A stretch of 42,088 nt of DNA from Acidobacteriota bacterium. Its GTDB lineage: Bacteria > Acidobacteriota > Terriglobia > Acidiferrales > UBA7541. This document shows, piece by piece, positions 1,796 to 30,403 of this stretch. A program made the position numbers and the translations under genes. Under the pieces are notes generated by a model that was not told the DNA's origin, searched no databases, and saw nothing but the letters and a program-made list of their open reading frames with translations. The stretch lies in the NCBI GenBank assembly GCA_021818865.1, contig JAKASX010000022.1:1-42088 (forward strand). Direction: 5' to 3'. Within the stretch, counting starts at the first letter, position 1. Each line of letters begins with the position of its first letter.

Positions 1796-3700
1796 TTACG
1801 AGCCGTTGTTCATGGGCTTTGGCGCGAGGATCTGCCGCAGGTAATCGGTCGTGCCCGGCACTCGGACGAGATGCGGGTACTTCAGTCCATCGTCGTAATA
1901 GACGGTGTAGAGCGCGGTGACACCATCGCCCTTCGCCATGATTTGCAACGGCTTTTTGCTCTTCTGCGCCTGGGCGATTTCGCTCCACAACAAGCCGGTG
2001 CTGTATGGGTGGCCGTCGATGGACACAAGCTTCATGCCCGGCGCGAGCCCGGCCTTGAAAGCCGGTCCGTTCCATAACACGTCCTCGACTTTGCCTTGCT
2101 GATCGAGGAACAGGCCCACCGAGAACATCGCATTGACACCCATCCTGCTGAGCTCACCCTCGCCGACGTTCTCGAGCGCATTTTGATACCGCGAAGGCTG
2201 ATCGGTATAGACCAGACGCCAACCGCTGCCGTTGATGCCGGACAGCAGTGGAACCTGTTGGCCCACGCCGTACAGCCAATTGTGCAGGAAGCTCGCCCAG
2301 TCATACGGCTGGACCGCGTTGAGAGCGCTGACGACGTCGTGGAAGGTGTAGGTATGGGTTGTGAAACTGCCGTTGTCGACGCCGAAAAATCGCCGGGCAA
2401 AATCGTCAATCGAGCGCCGATCGTGGCTTAACGTCCGGATTTTCACATCGACGGCGAGCCAGAGCAGTTCGCCTTCACGATAGAAATCAATTTGCCGGCG
2501 CCAGTTCGCCCATGCGCTCGGCGAGCTGTAAAGCAACTGCGCGGCGACGGTGGTGTCGACGAGCGGTCGCCACTCGCGCCCCGTATGGTGTGCCATTACC
2601 GCCGCGCGGTAGGCGACCGCCTGACGCCATGTTTGCGGCGACCACAACCCGCTTCGCGCCGTCAACATGTCGCCGAGGTAGGTCGTGAGCCCCTCATACA
2701 CCCACACCATCTGCGTATGCTCGGGAATCTCGAAGTTGGGCTGCCACAGCCCCGCCGGGCGCATGAATTTGCCGTTCCACGAGTGCGTGTATTCATGCGG
2801 CAACAGCGAGGCATCGAGCATGAAATGGTCGGCGTCGGCAAACATCTTCGCGCCGCTCCGGGCGCGGTCGTCGCTCGATTGGTGGTGCTCCAGACCACCC
2901 GTCGAGACGTAGTCGCTCAAGGTCAGAAGGAAGTGGTAGTCGTCGTAGTGATGTGAGTGAAACAGCGCCTGCGCTTGTTCGACCAGATGACGAAAATCGG
3001 TGAGTTGGGCATCGGAAATGTCAATCGCCGCCGCGGTATCACCCACCATATCGAGATAACGATGCACCGACGAGCCGGGTGGCGTGAGATCAATCTCCCG
3101 GAAATACTTCCCGGCAATCACCGGTGAATCCACCAGCGTGTTGAACGGTACGGGCTTGAACGTGATGCGCCCGCCGCTGCGTTCTTCCGTCCTCAGCGCA
3201 CTCGCGTAGCCCCAACCGGCGGGGATCACCAGCGTCGGTTCATACATCTGCACTTTGGTCGGATAGCCGGTCTGGTACAGCGCTACGGTATTCCACTCCA
3301 GACCCATGAGATGCGGTGTGACCCGGTCGCGTGCCGGAAATTGGAAGCGGATATCGATCCGGTTGACGCCCATCGGCACCGTCAAATGAAACATGAACAT
3401 GTCCACTTCGTCGCGGAGCCATGCGATCCGTTTGCCGCCGGCCGTGATTTCCAGGCCCATCATTGTGCCGATCGGCCCGTCCGGCGCGTGGTCGCCCGGA
3501 ATCCATTTCGGGTAGTAAAGCGTCAGCGGTCCCGGCCTGACCGGCATCACTTCATGCACGTAGAAAATCGTTTGTTGCGGATGGGGCAATCGCACGGTCA
3601 GCGAAACGGGACCGGCTGGACCCTTCGCGACCGCCTGACCGAAGCAAGACACGGACGCGGCGAGAGCCGCCGCGCCAAGAAGCAATGACAATCGTTTCAT
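1796..3700 (-). CDS. secreted M61-family (glycyl aminopeptidase-like) metallopeptidase with PDZ domain
   Basis: A 634-residue exported zinc peptidase. Residues 1-26 form a signal peptide (MKRLSLLLGAAALAASVSCF). The N-terminal beta region (about 30-200) is the usual M61 substrate-recognition part. The zinc site is HEYTH (His302, Glu303, His306) followed by SWNGKFMRP, with a third ligand in VYEGLTTYLGD (Glu336); GGLEHH (268-273) is also typical. A PDZ-like domain occupies about 520-590 (VGLFLDQQGKVEDV, AFKAGLAPG). Length and domain order match the family. It probably acts in the periplasm or outside the cell on peptides; family members prefer N-terminal Gly or Ala, but the specificity here is not visible. 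It stands alone, with a sigma70-like promoter at 3760-3788. Confidence 0.93.
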   Translation of the reverse strand: MKRLSLLLGAAALAASVSCFGQAVAKGPAGPVSLTVRLPHPQQTIFYVHEVMPVRPGPLTLYYPKWIPGDHAPDGPIGTMMGLEITAGGKRIAWLRDEVDMFMFHLTVPMGVNRIDIRFQFPARDRVTPHLMGLEWNTVALYQTGYPTKVQMYEPTLVIPAGWGYASALRTEERSGGRITFKPVPFNTLVDSPVIAGKYFREIDLTPPGSSVHRYLDMVGDTAAAIDISDAQLTDFRHLVEQAQALFHSHHYDDYHFLLTLSDYVSTGGLEHHQSSDDRARSGAKMFADADHFMLDASLLPHEYTHSWNGKFMRPAGLWQPNFEIPEHTQMVWVYEGLTTYLGDMLTARSGLWSPQTWRQAVAYRAAVMAHHTGREWRPLVDTTVAAQLLYSSPSAWANWRRQIDFYREGELLWLAVDVKIRTLSHDRRSIDDFARRFFGVDNGSFTTHTYTFHDVVSALNAVQPYDWASFLHNWLYGVGQQVPLLSGINGSGWRLVYTDQPSRYQNALENVGEGELSRMGVNAMFSVGLFLDQQGKVEDVLWNGPAFKAGLAPGMKLVSIDGHPYSTGLLWSEIAQAQKSKKPLQIMAKGDGVTALYTVYYDDGLKYPHLVRVPGTTDYLRQILAPKPMNNGS

Positions 3701-3759
3701 GCGTCATACCCCGAAGTGGAGTACTCGAAAGCTCCAAACCGCTGGCCTGCCCGATGTTT

Positions 3760-3788
3760 TGTATCATCAAGGGTTAAGGCGTTGTCAA
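3760..3788 (-). promoter_or_regulatory. sigma70-like promoter of the M61 peptidase gene
   Basis: On the minus strand TTGACA (3788-3783) is followed after 17 bases by GATACA (3765-3760). The -35 box is perfect and the -10 box is moderate. It lies about 60 bases upstream of the peptidase start codon. Confidence 0.5.
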
Positions 3789-3945
3789 GGCCAAATGACC
3801 GCTGCCCCATCGCCGCTATCGGCAGCGTGCAGGCTCCGAGCAGTGAAATCCCAGTTGGCAATTGCCTTTAGGGGCGGCCAGGCGTATGTTGTTGACTGGC
3901 TGGAGTCCATAACGCAAATCCAAGCCCAGGCCTTCGCTTGCGGGG

Positions 3946-4320
3946 GTGATGCGCGCTATGTCCCAAGGTGATCCGGGTTCGACTGGCCAAACTCCCTTAT
4001 CGCCGCGGATCAGGAGTTTCGCCGGGGACCTGTTGGAAACGACAGTCGTCGCGGTTTCCGGCTTCTTGCTGTTCTGGCTGCTTCGGGGGGCAGTGGGAGG
4101 CCGGGGCGCCTCAGGATTGGTTATTGCTGGCGCTTTTTCTGTCTATCTCCTTGTCCGCTTTCGTGCCGTGCTGGGGCCCATCCTCATAGTTGTGTTCGCC
4201 TTGGGTTCGTGGGCAGTCTCAAGGTTTCTAGGAAGCGCTTGGAACCATTTCTTGATTGTGGCTGCTTTCGGCGTCGCTTTCGCTTCTGGCGTCGCGGTCT
4301 GGTACTACAGGAACCGGTAA
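3946..4320 (+). CDS. small integral-membrane protein of unknown function
   Basis: Up to 124 residues, with three or four hydrophobic segments (about 32-48, 55-72, 74-92 and 98-118: FLLFWLLRGAV, GLVIAGAFSVYLLV, PILIVVFALGSWAV, FLIVAAFGVAFASGVAVWY) and a short basic C-terminus, YYRNR. The amino-acid pattern is protein-like and no competing frame is better. Starts are possible at GTG 3946, ATG 3949 or ATG 3958; the last has GGGGGTG nine bases upstream. I recognise no family. It sits alone between the divergent M61 gene and the convergent hydrolase gene, so context gives no role. Confidence 0.5.
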   Translation: MMRAMSQGDPGSTGQTPLSPRIRSFAGDLLETTVVAVSGFLLFWLLRGAVGGRGASGLVIAGAFSVYLLVRFRAVLGPILIVVFALGSWAVSRFLGSAWNHFLIVAAFGVAFASGVAVWYYRNR

Positions 4321-24788: not shown

Positions 24789-25571
24789 CTACCCCTCGCC
24801 GGGTTTCGGTTTGGCCGGCTTTGCCGAGGGCGATTGCCCGCCCGCCGCTTTTGCCATTCGTTGGCGCACGGCTTCGAAGAGGACCACTCCGGCGGCCACC
24901 GATACGTTGAGCGAACGCACCGGGCCGGTGGTCGGAATCGCGACCACCCAGTCGCACTGTTTCCGCGTGAGTTCGTGCAGCCCGCGGCCCTCGCCGCCCA
25001 TCACCAGCGCGATGGGTCCGGTGTAGTCCATCGCCGTGTGCGGTTTTTCGCCGCGCTCGTCGAGCCCCACGATCCAGTAGCCGGCCGATTTCAATTCTTC
25101 CATCGCGCGCGCCAGATTCTTCACGCGCGCCACGGGCAGATGCTCGATCGCGCCGGCCGAAGTCCGCGCCACAGTCTCCGTCAGTCCTGCCGCACGGCGC
25201 TCGGGAATCACTAAACCATCGGCTCCTGCGGCCAGCGCGGTGCGCACAATCGCGCCCAGATTGCGCGGGTCCTCGATGCCGTCGAGTAGAACCACCAATC
25301 CCGGCGTTTTCGCCTTTGCCAGCAGATCCTCGATTTCGAGTGGAGCTTTCGAAGCGGCCAGCGCGATCACGCCCTGATGCCGCTCGCCTTCCGCCATGCG
25401 GTCGAGTTGTTCCCGGCTTTCGAATCGCACGGGAATTCCGCGTCGGCGCGCCAGATCCACGATTTCCTGAACGCGCTCGCCGTGCAGCCCTCGCGCCACG
25501 ATCACGCGGTCGATCGGCTGACCGGAGGCAACCGCTTCGTGCACGGCATGAATTCCCATTCGTCGGACCAT
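24789..25571 (-). CDS. rlmB: 23S rRNA (guanosine-2'-O-)-methyltransferase, TrmH/SpoU family
   Basis: About 260 residues from ATG 25571, chosen because GAGGGAC lies seven bases upstream and MVRRMGIHAVHEAV is the normal start. The N-terminal substrate-binding domain (to about 75) resembles an L30e fold. The SPOUT methyltransferase domain has NLGAIVRTALAAGADG (motif 1), LVMGGEGRGLHELT (motif 2) and PTTGPVRSLNVSVAAGVVLFE (motif 3), which form the AdoMet-binding knot. The expected target is G2251 of 23S rRNA, though close paralogues modify other sites. The Pro/Lys-rich tail is probably disordered. It is last in the ispD-ispF-GluRS-domain operon, 19 bases after the preceding stop. Confidence 0.9.
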   Translation of the reverse strand: MVRRMGIHAVHEAVASGQPIDRVIVARGLHGERVQEIVDLARRRGIPVRFESREQLDRMAEGERHQGVIALAASKAPLEIEDLLAKAKTPGLVVLLDGIEDPRNLGAIVRTALAAGADGLVIPERRAAGLTETVARTSAGAIEHLPVARVKNLARAMEELKSAGYWIVGLDERGEKPHTAMDYTGPIALVMGGEGRGLHELTRKQCDWVVAIPTTGPVRSLNVSVAAGVVLFEAVRQRMAKAAGGQSPSAKPAKPKPGEG

Positions 25572-25590: not shown

Positions 25591-26166
25591 TCAATCCATT
25601 TGGCTGCAGAATTCGAGCATGCGTTCGCGCGTCGGCTTGACACGGGTCGCGAAAGGCAACTCCGCGGCCCAGTCCAGCAGCAGAATCACGCGGTCCAACT
25701 CGCCGTCGCCTGCTCGCCCGGCGAGCGCCAGCCGCAGCGGGTGGCACAATTCGCGTCCGCTATACCCGCTGCGCTCGCGCACGCGGGTGAAAATCTCTTT
25801 CATCCGGTCGGAATCCACTTCCGAGCCGGAAATCACTTCGCGCCCCAATTCGCGAAGCACCGCGCGCGCCCCTGTTCGCGAAAGAACGATGGGCGCATCG
25901 GCGGAATTCAGAATTTCGCTCGCGTCGTAGTGAAAAACCAGCGAGAGCAACTCGGCGAGTTGCGTTTCGTCGTCGGCCTGCGGCCCCAGGAGCATCGCGG
26001 CGCGCTCGAGCCACGCGCGCAGCTCCGGCGTCTCCCGGTCCCCCTCGATCCTAAGCCATCCGCGCTGGCGCAGGATGCGCGCAACGTCCGACGCCGTCAA
26101 TCGCGGTGCCGGAGCGGATTCCGGATCACCGGCCGGCATGGGTTCGGGAAGGGATTCGGAAGGCAT
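25591..26166 (-). CDS. free-standing glutamyl-tRNA synthetase anticodon-binding-domain protein
   Basis: A 191-residue protein from ATG 26166 (a TTG six bases upstream is possible). It contains no HIGH or KMSKS motif and no catalytic fold. The whole length reads like the C-terminal alpha-helical cage of GluRS: ASDVARILRQRGW, RAAMLLGPQADDETQLAELLSLVFHYD, ARAVLRELGREV, MKEIFTRVRERSGYSGRELCHPLRLALAGRAGDGELDRVILLLD. The GRELCHPLRLALAGR stretch matches the GluRS K.L..PLR.ALTG element that contacts the tRNA. In Bacillus the order is ispD-ispF-gltX-cysE-cysS-mrnC-rlmB, and here this gene sits exactly where gltX would. It may bind tRNA or be a degenerate gltX remnant. The assignment is by eye and its role is unknown. 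Confidence 0.72.
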   Translation of the reverse strand: MPSESLPEPMPAGDPESAPAPRLTASDVARILRQRGWLRIEGDRETPELRAWLERAAMLLGPQADDETQLAELLSLVFHYDASEILNSADAPIVLSRTGARAVLRELGREVISGSEVDSDRMKEIFTRVRERSGYSGRELCHPLRLALAGRAGDGELDRVILLLDWAAELPFATRVKPTRERMLEFCSQMD

Positions 26167-26226
26167 CGCCAACTCATTTTACAAACAATCGTCACGCCAC
26201 CGGCAGTCGGCCGCGCCGCCGCGCCA

Positions 26227-26727
26227 TCAGCTGGCCAGCGCGGCAACGGCTTGCGCGGCGATGGCTTCGCCGCGACCCAATTCGCCCAGCCCCTCGTTCG
26301 TTTTGGCTTTCAAATTGATTCGTTCGTGGGGAATGCCTAGCGCGCGGGCGAGGGCCTGACGCATGGAGGGAAAGTGCGGCCCCAGCTTCGGCCGCTCCGC
26401 GATCACCACCGCATCAATCCAAGCGACGTGAAAACCGCGTTCGGCAAGCAGCGTCCCGGTTCGCTCGAGAAACAGCAGGCTCGATACGCCCTTCCATTTC
26501 GGATCGGTATCGGGGAAATGCGTGCCGATGTCGCCGAGTCCCGCGGCGCCCAGCAGCGCGTCGCAGATCGCATGCGCCAGCGCGTCGCCGTCGGAATGGC
26601 CCACCGGTCCGCGCTTGGCCGCAAGCTCGACGCCGCCGAGGATCAGCTTCCGCCCTGGCTCCAGTCGATGCAGGTCGTAACCGATGCCTATGCGGCAGAT
26701 CGGCTCGGGCCGGGCCGCGTCGCTCAC
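26227..26727 (-). CDS. ispF: 2-C-methyl-D-erythritol 2,4-cyclodiphosphate synthase
   Basis: A 166-residue enzyme of the MEP isoprenoid pathway, forming the cyclodiphosphate from CDP-ME 2-phosphate. GIGYDLHRL supplies the metal-binding Asp and His, GHSDGDALAHAICDALLGAAGLGDIGTHFPDTD is the conserved active-site stretch, and the end reads INLKAKTNEGLGELGRGEAIAAQAV. The start is GTG 26727, overlapping the ispD stop in GTGA, so translation is coupled. It follows ispD, as in many bacteria. The next two genes down are the GluRS-like domain and rlmB. Confidence 0.96.
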   Translation of the reverse strand: MSDAARPEPICRIGIGYDLHRLEPGRKLILGGVELAAKRGPVGHSDGDALAHAICDALLGAAGLGDIGTHFPDTDPKWKGVSSLLFLERTGTLLAERGFHVAWIDAVVIAERPKLGPHFPSMRQALARALGIPHERINLKAKTNEGLGELGRGEAIAAQAVAALAS

Positions 26728-27440
26728 GGTGAGCTGCGCTCCTGCTGCAGGTAAAATTGCGCCAGTTCTAAATCCGCCGGCCGCGTGATCTTGATGTTGC
26801 GCTCCGATCCCAGCACCACGTGGACTTCATGGCCCAGGCGCTCGACGAGCGCCGCTTCGTCGGAAGCCGTCATGCCGTCCGCTTCGGCGCGCGCGTAGGC
26901 GTCGCGCAGCAGGCGAGTGGCGAAGACTTGGGGCGTTTGCGCCAGAACGATCCGCTCGCGCGGAATCGTCGCCGTGATCAGTGCCGTATCTTCCGGCAAG
27001 CCCGTGCGCTTCACTTCTTTTACCGTATCGATCGCCGGAATACCGGCAATCGCTGCGCCGCAGACCTGCGCTTCGGCCACCACACGCTCGATCATTTCCC
27101 GCGTCACCAGCGGCCGCACCGCGTCGTGCACCACCACAAGTTCCACGTCCTCGTCAACCGCCTGGAGCGCGCGTCCCACCGATTCCTGCCGCGTTTCGCC
27201 GCCGGCCACCACACGCACCGGCCGGCCCAGCGATTCGCCGCCCAGCTGTTCGCGCAGCGCGGCAACATGTTCTTCGGGCGATGCAATCCAGAATTCGGTC
27301 AGCATCGGGCTGGCCGCCAGGCGGCGCAGCGTCAGAAACAGAATGGGAACGCCGTCCAGTTCGAGGAACTGTTTCGGCGTGCCCAAACCCATCCGCGTGC
27401 CCATTCCGGCCGCGGCGACGATGGCTGCGATCCGATTCAT
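26724..27440 (-). CDS. ispD: 2-C-methyl-D-erythritol 4-phosphate cytidylyltransferase
   Basis: A 238-residue enzyme making CDP-methylerythritol in the MEP pathway. MNRIAAIVAAAGMGTRMG is the CTP-binding start and fixes ATG 27440, with GTPKQFLELDG after it; longer frames add only an unrelated leader. Further landmarks are VHDAVRPLVTREMIERVV, IPAIDTVKEV, TPQVFATRLL and ASDEAALVERLGHEV, all in the family order. It is the first gene of a four-gene minus-strand operon and is divergent from maf across about 200 bases. Confidence 0.96.
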   Translation of the reverse strand: MNRIAAIVAAAGMGTRMGLGTPKQFLELDGVPILFLTLRRLAASPMLTEFWIASPEEHVAALREQLGGESLGRPVRVVAGGETRQESVGRALQAVDEDVELVVVHDAVRPLVTREMIERVVAEAQVCGAAIAGIPAIDTVKEVKRTGLPEDTALITATIPRERIVLAQTPQVFATRLLRDAYARAEADGMTASDEAALVERLGHEVHVVLGSERNIKITRPADLELAQFYLQQERSSP

Positions 27441-27588
27441 CAGGGGTCGAAAAGTGTACTCCATCCGCCTGGCGAATGGAAACTTTCCGCTTCCCATATT
27501 CCATGCGACGCGTCGTTTACAGCTGACCGCACGGCACCCTTACAAGCGGTCCATTTTATCGCGTTCGCGGGGCGGCGGCCGGGCCGGA

Positions 27589-28504: not shown

Positions 28505-30403
28505 TTAAAGTATAACCCTCTCGTCGCCCGCGCGTCGAGTCGCCTGTTCCCGATCCAGAAATTCGAGTAACGGGATGGCGTATTTGCGGCTGACGCCGGC
28601 CAGTTCCTTGAAACTCGCCACGGAAATCCGCTCCCCTTGCCGCTTTTTATATTCAGCGAGCAGTTCCCGCAGGCGAACGATCGCCGCGCGGTGAAACACC
28701 AAGTCCTCGCTGACTTTCACCAGAATTCCTTCGCGCAGCAGCAATTGGAGCAGCTTCCGTGCCCGCTGCGGGTCCACTGGCAGACGCGAAACCAATTCTT
28801 CGAGCCGCGGTGCCGTTAGGCCCGCCGTTTCGAACGCGCGTTCCAGCAATTCCCGCGCGCGCTGCTCTTCCGCCGTCAAAACGATCTTGCGCCCCGCGCG
28901 CCGCACCGTATCCGCTTGCACTTCAGCCTCGCCGCGCGAGACCAGTTCCTCCAGCGCGGCTGGAAAAATCTCCGCTCGAAGATGGCGCGCCGCGCGCGCC
29001 CGCAATTCCTCCTTCGGAATACCGGCAACCAGCGGGTTCGTTCGGTGAAAGGCGTCGAGCGCCGCAAGCATCCGCGCGGTGCAAGCGGCAAAATTTTCCG
29101 CCGAACAAAGGACCCAGGGTTCTCGGCTCACAATCTTCAGCCGGCCCGCGCGTTCGAGCGCTTCGGCTGAGGCGCGAATCTCCGCTTCGCTCCACGCCGT
29201 TCGCGCCACGACCTCCGCGAGGCCCAATCCGCGCGGCTCGGCGGCGGCAAGGGCCGCGAGGGAATCCTCGCGGTTTCCCGCTTCGAGCGTTCGCAGCAGC
29301 GATAGCGCCGCTGCGTCGTTCGCGCGATGCCGCGGAGCCAGTCCGTCGAGCACCACGCCGCCACCAATGGTCGTCACGGGAGAAAACTGCCTCAGGATGA
29401 ACCGGTCGCCGGCCAGAACCAGCGCCGGCTCGCGCAGGCGCAATTGCGCGAGGCCCGATTCGCCGGGAGGGATCGCAGCCCCTTCGAGCGTCACCACCTC
29501 CGCCACCGTTTCCGCCGTTCCCTGGTGAAAATGCACCAAGGCACGGTTCTTGAGCGGACGGGCAGTTCCGAGCAATTGGATTCTTGCGTCAATCTGGCGA
29601 GTCGGATGAAAGCGCCCGGGACTGGTCAGCGCCACCCCGCGTCGCACGTCCGCCAGTTCCACGCCGGCCAGATTGAGCGCAGTGCGTTGGCCCGCGCACG
29701 CCTGTTCCACATCGTGCCCGGCCGATTGCACGCCACGCACGCGCACCGGTCGCCCTGCGGGAAAAAGTTCCAGTTCGTCGCCGGCCTTCACCTTCCCGGA
29801 AACCAGCGTTCCGGTCACCACCGTTCCGAATCCCTTCACCGCAAACGCACGATCCACCGGCAGTCGGCAGTGGCGGGAATCGTCGCGTCCCGCTGTTACG
29901 TTGGCCGCCGCGAGCAGGCTCGCGCGCAGCGCTTCGATCCCCACGCCGGTTCGCGCGCTCACCGGCAGAATCGGCGCGCCGTCGAGGAACGATCCCCGAA
30001 CGAATTCCTCCACTTCCAGCCGAACCAGCTCCAGCGTTTCCTCGTCTACGAGGTCGGCTTTTGTCAGCGCGATGATGCCCCGCGAGATGCCCAGCAGACG
30101 GCAAATTTCGAAATGCTCCCGCGTCTGAGGCTTGATGGATTCGTCGGCGGCGATCACCAGCAGCACCAGGTCTATGCCCGCCGCGCCCGCGAGCATGTTC
30201 CGCACGAACCGCTCGTGACCGGGCACGTCCACAAAGCCCAGGCGCACGCCGCCGCTTTCGAGAAACGCGAACCCCAAGTCAATCGTGATTCCGCGCCGCT
30301 TCTCCTCTTCCAAACGGTCCGGATGCGTACCCGTCAGCGCCTCGACCAGCGCTGATTTGCCATGGTCAATGTGTCCAGCGGTGCCGATAATGACGTTTTT
30401 CAT
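28505..30403 (-). CDS. selB: selenocysteine-specific translation elongation factor
   Basis: A 632-residue EF-Tu-like factor that carries Sec-tRNA to UGA codons by binding a SECIS hairpin. G1 is [20 protein letters not shown]3 [13 protein letters not shown] and G4 TKAD (in [13 protein letters not shown]). Domains 2 and 3 follow, then a long C-terminal region of winged-helix repeats (for example [18 protein letters not shown] and [25 protein letters not shown]) that binds the SECIS RNA. Length is normal. It implies selA, selC, selD and at least one selenoprotein elsewhere; none was found here. ATG 30403 has no clear Shine-Dalgarno sequence. It lies between pyrF and tatA. Confidence 0.96.

Follow-up and report, generated by a model that had tools for sequence, protein, structure and literature searches.

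A free-standing anticodon-binding domain of glutamyl-tRNA synthetase between ispF and rlmB in Acidobacteriota, very probably derived from an HVGN-type second enzyme

Introduction

Free-standing catalytic and editing pieces of aminoacyl-tRNA synthetases are known, and so are free-standing tRNA binders with an OB-fold. For glutamyl-tRNA synthetase (GluRS), a review of synthetase duplicates has GluQ-RS as its sole entry (PMC9437257). GluQ-RS (YadB) is, like the protein described here, a part of GluRS on its own gene, but it represents the opposite half, the catalytic domain without the anticodon domain (PMC9437257). In acidobacteria a second enzyme, GluRS2, was reported with an HVGN motif and a two-copy pattern, and its inactivity was predicted (PMC3927822).

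An earlier note on a 42,088-nucleotide stretch of an Acidobacteriota genome (assembly GCA_021818865.1, contig JAKASX010000022.1; hereafter the window) described a GluRS C-terminal domain lacking the catalytic region, encoded in the position of gltX within an ispD-ispF-rlmB cluster, and suggested that it might be a tRNA-binding regulator or adaptor, or the remains of a gene retained for a different purpose. Here the locus, its distribution in relatives and its origin were analysed.

Results

The locus and its product

The genes in the window are arranged in the order ispD, ispF, domain gene and rlmB, followed by apt on the opposite strand:

26724..27497, minus strand: ispD, upstream of ispF (open reading frame, conserved neighbour; named from sequence)
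26227..26727, minus strand: ispF, upstream neighbour (open reading frame, conserved neighbour in relatives; named from sequence)
25591..26166, minus strand: free-standing GluRS anticodon-binding domain gene (PF19269 above cut-off, C-terminal TIGR00464 match, conserved family, tree position)
24789..25571, minus strand: rlmB-like methyltransferase gene, downstream (open reading frame, start read from sequence, conserved neighbour)

The domain gene runs from an ATG at 26166, with a TTG at 26172 as alternative start, to a stop codon at 25593-25591, and its product has 191 residues. Its position, strand and length were as first described, as were both motifs named at the time (including GELDRVILLLD), and the gene order proved correct both by the open reading frames and by the loci of relatives. 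The likely rlmB start, an ATG at 25571, lies 19 bases past the stop of the domain gene, a gap which suggests that the two may be co-transcribed; a search for promoter-like sites in the region gave none. No tRNA genes were found within the window. Two further features of the window, both on the minus strand, are a 632-aa open reading frame at 28505-30403 resembling the selenocysteine elongation factor SelB, and a cobalamin riboswitch match at 1-93, barely over the gathering score and truncated by the window end.

The PF19269 (Anticodon_2) model matches residues 48-152 of the protein significantly (E 4.8e-7, 30.7 bits against a cut-off of 23.6), and all 30 members of an alignment of the free-standing family are matched as well (E up to 1; best 1.1e-10). 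The NCBIfam GluRS model TIGR00464 matches the protein only C-terminally, over model positions 346-455 of 470, and no catalytic GluRS domain with HIGH and KMSKS was detected in it by the Pfam and NCBIfam GluRS profiles, which bears out the reading as a GluRS C-terminal domain without catalytic region. Identity with GluQ-RS was rejected, as the opposite half is present here. The 191-residue protein is thus a stand-alone GluRS anticodon-binding domain encoded between ispF and rlmB. Against the sequences of the PDB, a profile search returned marginal GluRS matches only (best E 0.013). AlphaFold models built from three sequences were of low confidence (mean pLDDT 63 and 68) and all-helical; GluRS entries head their Foldseek lists, but at E > 0.1 and with many unrelated helical proteins listed, and VIA with these models gave Z of 4-6 to GluRS, which stands among unrelated helical rows.

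Distribution in relatives

A family profile was used to search 95 genomes from the order, and totals were counted from the resulting table. In family f1 the domain stands alone in 63 of the 89 genomes, its frame being open in 61 of these carriers and disrupted in two (G007 and G095); it also stands alone in the single genome of the neighbouring family f2, and a longer form is found in four of the five genomes of family f3. No listed genome of genus g5 or g8 has the domain, and some others lack it too. At ten out of ten examined f1 loci without it, ispF and rlmB sit on one contig and are separated by just a short gap, which makes the absence real in those loci. Outside the order, nearly all of the profile matches listed (from 399 genomes at the level of the class and 297 at that of the phylum) fall in frames of about 460 aa and more, presumably full-length enzymes; a few of the listed matches lie in shorter frames, several near contig ends. 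The sample thus points to a free-standing form confined to this order, a pattern and not a proof.

Relatives that carry the gene keep it in place, nearly always between ispF and rlmB, a point that the earlier note had proposed to check. This was the arrangement in a first set of f1 and f2 loci, where L034 and similar contigs end early, and in a second set ispF and rlmB lie on the same strand in 34 of 38 loci; for the remaining four, three contigs end first and one (L145) has rlmB on the opposite strand. An assembly error that removed a gltX start just upstream, a possibility raised at the outset, was ruled out, given that ispF is intact and that dozens of assemblies, each made independently, show this short form.

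Several loci deserve separate mention. In the two disrupted genomes, both of genus g4 (L153 in G095, L154 in G007), the domain frame breaks in a common stretch around residues 154-171, and these may be pseudogenes, assembly errors or something else. In locus L097 (G014), ispF and the domain gene are separated by a 292-aa reading frame on the opposite strand (3092-3967) that is uninterrupted from one stop codon to the next, and in L009, from the same genus, the gap between these two genes is comparably wide. Six genomes (G343, G217, G483, G523, G585 and G610) have two profile matches each on different contigs, possibly two GluRS genes or one fragmented gene. A match in G057 (E 1.4e-4) lies in an unrelated 486-aa open reading frame reading like a flotillin-type protein, and was taken as chance.

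Origin from an HVGN-type enzyme and stepwise shortening

Two groups can be distinguished among the full-length GluRS of the class, an HVGG group, comprising the resident gltX and two divergent outliers, and an HVGN group, whose motif and two-copy pattern agree with those described for acidobacterial GluRS2 (PMC3927822). In a tree of the C-terminal domain the free-standing domains and the f3 forms join the HVGN enzymes with support of 100/100, and forcing them with the HVGG enzymes was rejected (p-AU 0.000192), which rules out a duplicate of the resident gltX. Full HVGN genes adjoin rlmB in families f5, f6, f8, f9 and f14, and the exact order ispF, GluRS, rlmB occurs in f5; no HVGN gene was seen beside rlmB in the examined f11 loci. 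The proposed gltX position was therefore well chosen, since relatives carry a full GluRS gene there, the lost enzyme being the HVGN-type second GluRS and not the housekeeping gltX. In one f11 genome, listed as 100% complete (G058; L059 and L088), an HVGN-type enzyme is the only GluRS detected, and GlnRS is also present.

The f3 proteins, of about 333 aa (one truncated by a contig end), are alignable along the enzyme and keep its C-terminal half. Their HIGH segment reads SPPAEALTAE or similar and their KMSKS region WGQWSGR or similar, the catalytic fold between the two is mostly deleted, and no Pfam catalytic domain was found in the three f3 proteins scanned. In the f1 and f2 proteins nothing is left ahead of the anticodon domain. 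Support for the fork uniting f3 with f1 and f2 is moderate (92/78), and the simplest reading, although unproven, is consequently that catalysis was lost once and the protein was then shortened further. Between ispF and the short GluRS form, the f3 loci also contain a small, very basic open reading frame of about 60-70 aa (KKHQKRRKRAKEKVKLYEQ...; four of four loci, L092-L095) and a larger one with a HACxxEEQQALERGEGFGMA-like sequence (three of four, L093-L095).

Selection and newly fixed residues

Over eleven pairs dN/dS ranged from 0.10 to 0.32 (Nei-Gojobori), which indicates purifying selection, although the values are rough because some dS exceed 1. Among 62 free-standing sequences, one of which (L034) may duplicate a genome in the set, R105 and C187 never vary and R97 is present in 61. 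All three residues are likewise fixed in the forms of f2 and f3, yet variable in 23 full-length enzymes, which argues for a new function and not for decay. R145, K177 and R182, common to free-standing domains and full enzymes, are nearly invariant, and G61, G153, G155, R159 and D165 are invariant in f1 and different in the f2 and f3 forms. The free-standing core is acidic, with a mean net charge of -4.1 against -1.2 in the corresponding region of full enzymes. Moreover, the G-P of the SGPEL loop of the full enzyme is replaced in the free-standing forms, in which G153 and G155 are invariant; this loop was aligned to the T444-P445 loop of the Thermus GluRS, which we take to be anticodon-contacting.

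Resident GluRS and the route to Gln-tRNA

The source genome (95% complete, 165 contigs) contains a complete gltX on a different contig, encoding 488 aa with HVGG and RLSKR, which answers the earlier question of whether a full gltX exists elsewhere. A search of this genome with the GluRS model returned nothing beyond that gene and the 191-residue domain, and no separate catalytic half; the domain thus does not stem from an assembly error, nor does it belong to a split enzyme. A search of 43 genomes of the order detected no GlnRS, and every searched genome that is at least 90% complete has GatB, so that Gln-tRNA is presumably made via the indirect route.

Discussion

We consider it very nearly certain that the domain descends from the second, HVGN-type acidobacterial GluRS, once located between ispF and rlmB. 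The catalytic half of that enzyme would have been lost stepwise while the anticodon-binding domain survived in place, and three stages, the full enzyme, a catalytically dead short form and the domain alone, are readable in extant families. Among the suggestions first made for this gene, a remnant retained for a different purpose is the best supported, by selection, by the newly fixed residues and by the eroded intermediate in a sister family, and a tRNA-binding regulator or adaptor is a possibility. The positions that became fixed in the shortened proteins mark a possible site of the new function.

As for that function, we favour a non-catalytic accessory acting in trans, because it fits both the ancestry and the indirect route to Gln-tRNA. 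Most likely the domain would grip tRNA-Glu or tRNA-Gln by the anticodon arm on behalf of the one GluRS left and of the GatCAB amidotransferase; having no GlnRS, these genomes would be obliged to make Gln-tRNA indirectly. The newly fixed residues would then provide a new contact, with either a protein partner or another part of the RNA. Nevertheless, the acidic shift and the rebuilding of the presumed anticodon loop cast real doubt on such a role, and the domain is dispensable, being absent throughout the g5 and g8 genomes, which also counts against it. The tRNA-accessory half of the explanation is more apt to fail than to hold, and the whole statement, an HVGN GluRS2 remnant turned trans-acting accessory for tRNA(Glu/Gln), is tentative, a little short of an even chance. 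That the orphan domain became, after staged catalytic loss, a lineage-wide trans-acting tRNA-Glu/Gln factor, such as one serving GluRS and GatCAB in specificity or delivery, and so a mirror image of GluQ-RS, we regard as possible rather than probable.

The same acidic shift and rebuilt loop, together with the newly fixed residues, would be explained if the cage no longer held tRNA and the domain served as a protein-binding adaptor or regulator, attached for example to the resident GluRS, GatCAB or RlmB via the surface of R97, R105 and C187. However, R145, K177 and R182, which the full enzyme has as well, stay nearly invariant, as expected if an RNA contact or the fold were kept. A protein-binding role is rather unlikely taken singly, and nearly as likely as the trans-acting tRNA accessory. 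Alternatively, the domain may bind an RNA other than tRNA-Glu or tRNA-Gln, such as the mRNA of its own operon or rRNA near the RlmB site, and its conserved place adjoining the gene of an rRNA methyltransferase could be taken in favour of such a regulator. That place was, however, inherited from the full-length ancestor, hence the neighbourhood is not independent evidence, and in L145 rlmB lies on the other strand; we judge this reading unlikely.

A functionless remnant still awaiting loss would account for the genomes that lack the gene and for the disruptions in G007 and G095, but it is very improbable given the low dN/dS, the frame open in nearly all f1 carriers and fixed residues that vary in the ancestor-like enzymes; a neutral pseudogene is likewise disfavoured by dN/dS and the new invariants. 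Finally, although free-standing catalytic GluRS paralogues (GluQ-RS) occur in other bacteria (PMC9437257), the chance that the domain is half of a split GluRS cooperating with a separate catalytic half is negligible, as by the GluRS model this 95% complete genome holds only the complete gltX and the domain, and the N-terminal-only GluRS pieces found among 61 genomes are in three (G035, G046 and G050), none of which carries the domain.

Returning to the accessory acting in trans, which we prefer, the nearest functional models come from other families. SLIMP, a SerRS-like protein of insect mitochondria, is likewise a synthetase paralogue said to keep tRNA binding without aminoacylation (PMC9437257), but it derives from SerRS, pairs with the active enzyme as a heterodimer and does not consist of an anticodon domain alone. 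Trbp111 and Arc1p provide a model of a non-catalytic tRNA binder aiding synthetases in trans (PMC4394549, PMC11286949), in their case by OB-fold tRNA-binding domains as opposed to the helical cage of GluRS. A search of open-access literature turned up neither a free-standing nor a truncated GluRS anticodon domain, and a stand-alone form is likely, though not certain, to be new. The closest relative is the acidobacterial GluRS2 itself (PMC3927822), with which the domain shares its anticodon-binding clade and, in several families, the place beside rlmB, while differing from it in the lack of the catalytic and stem-contact parts, in the fixed R97, R105 and C187 and in the altered SGPEL loop. As the only GluRS detected in G058, the HVGN enzyme is by implication active there, contrary to the predicted inactivity of GluRS2 (PMC3927822), while the order described here discarded the catalytic part of the same enzyme.
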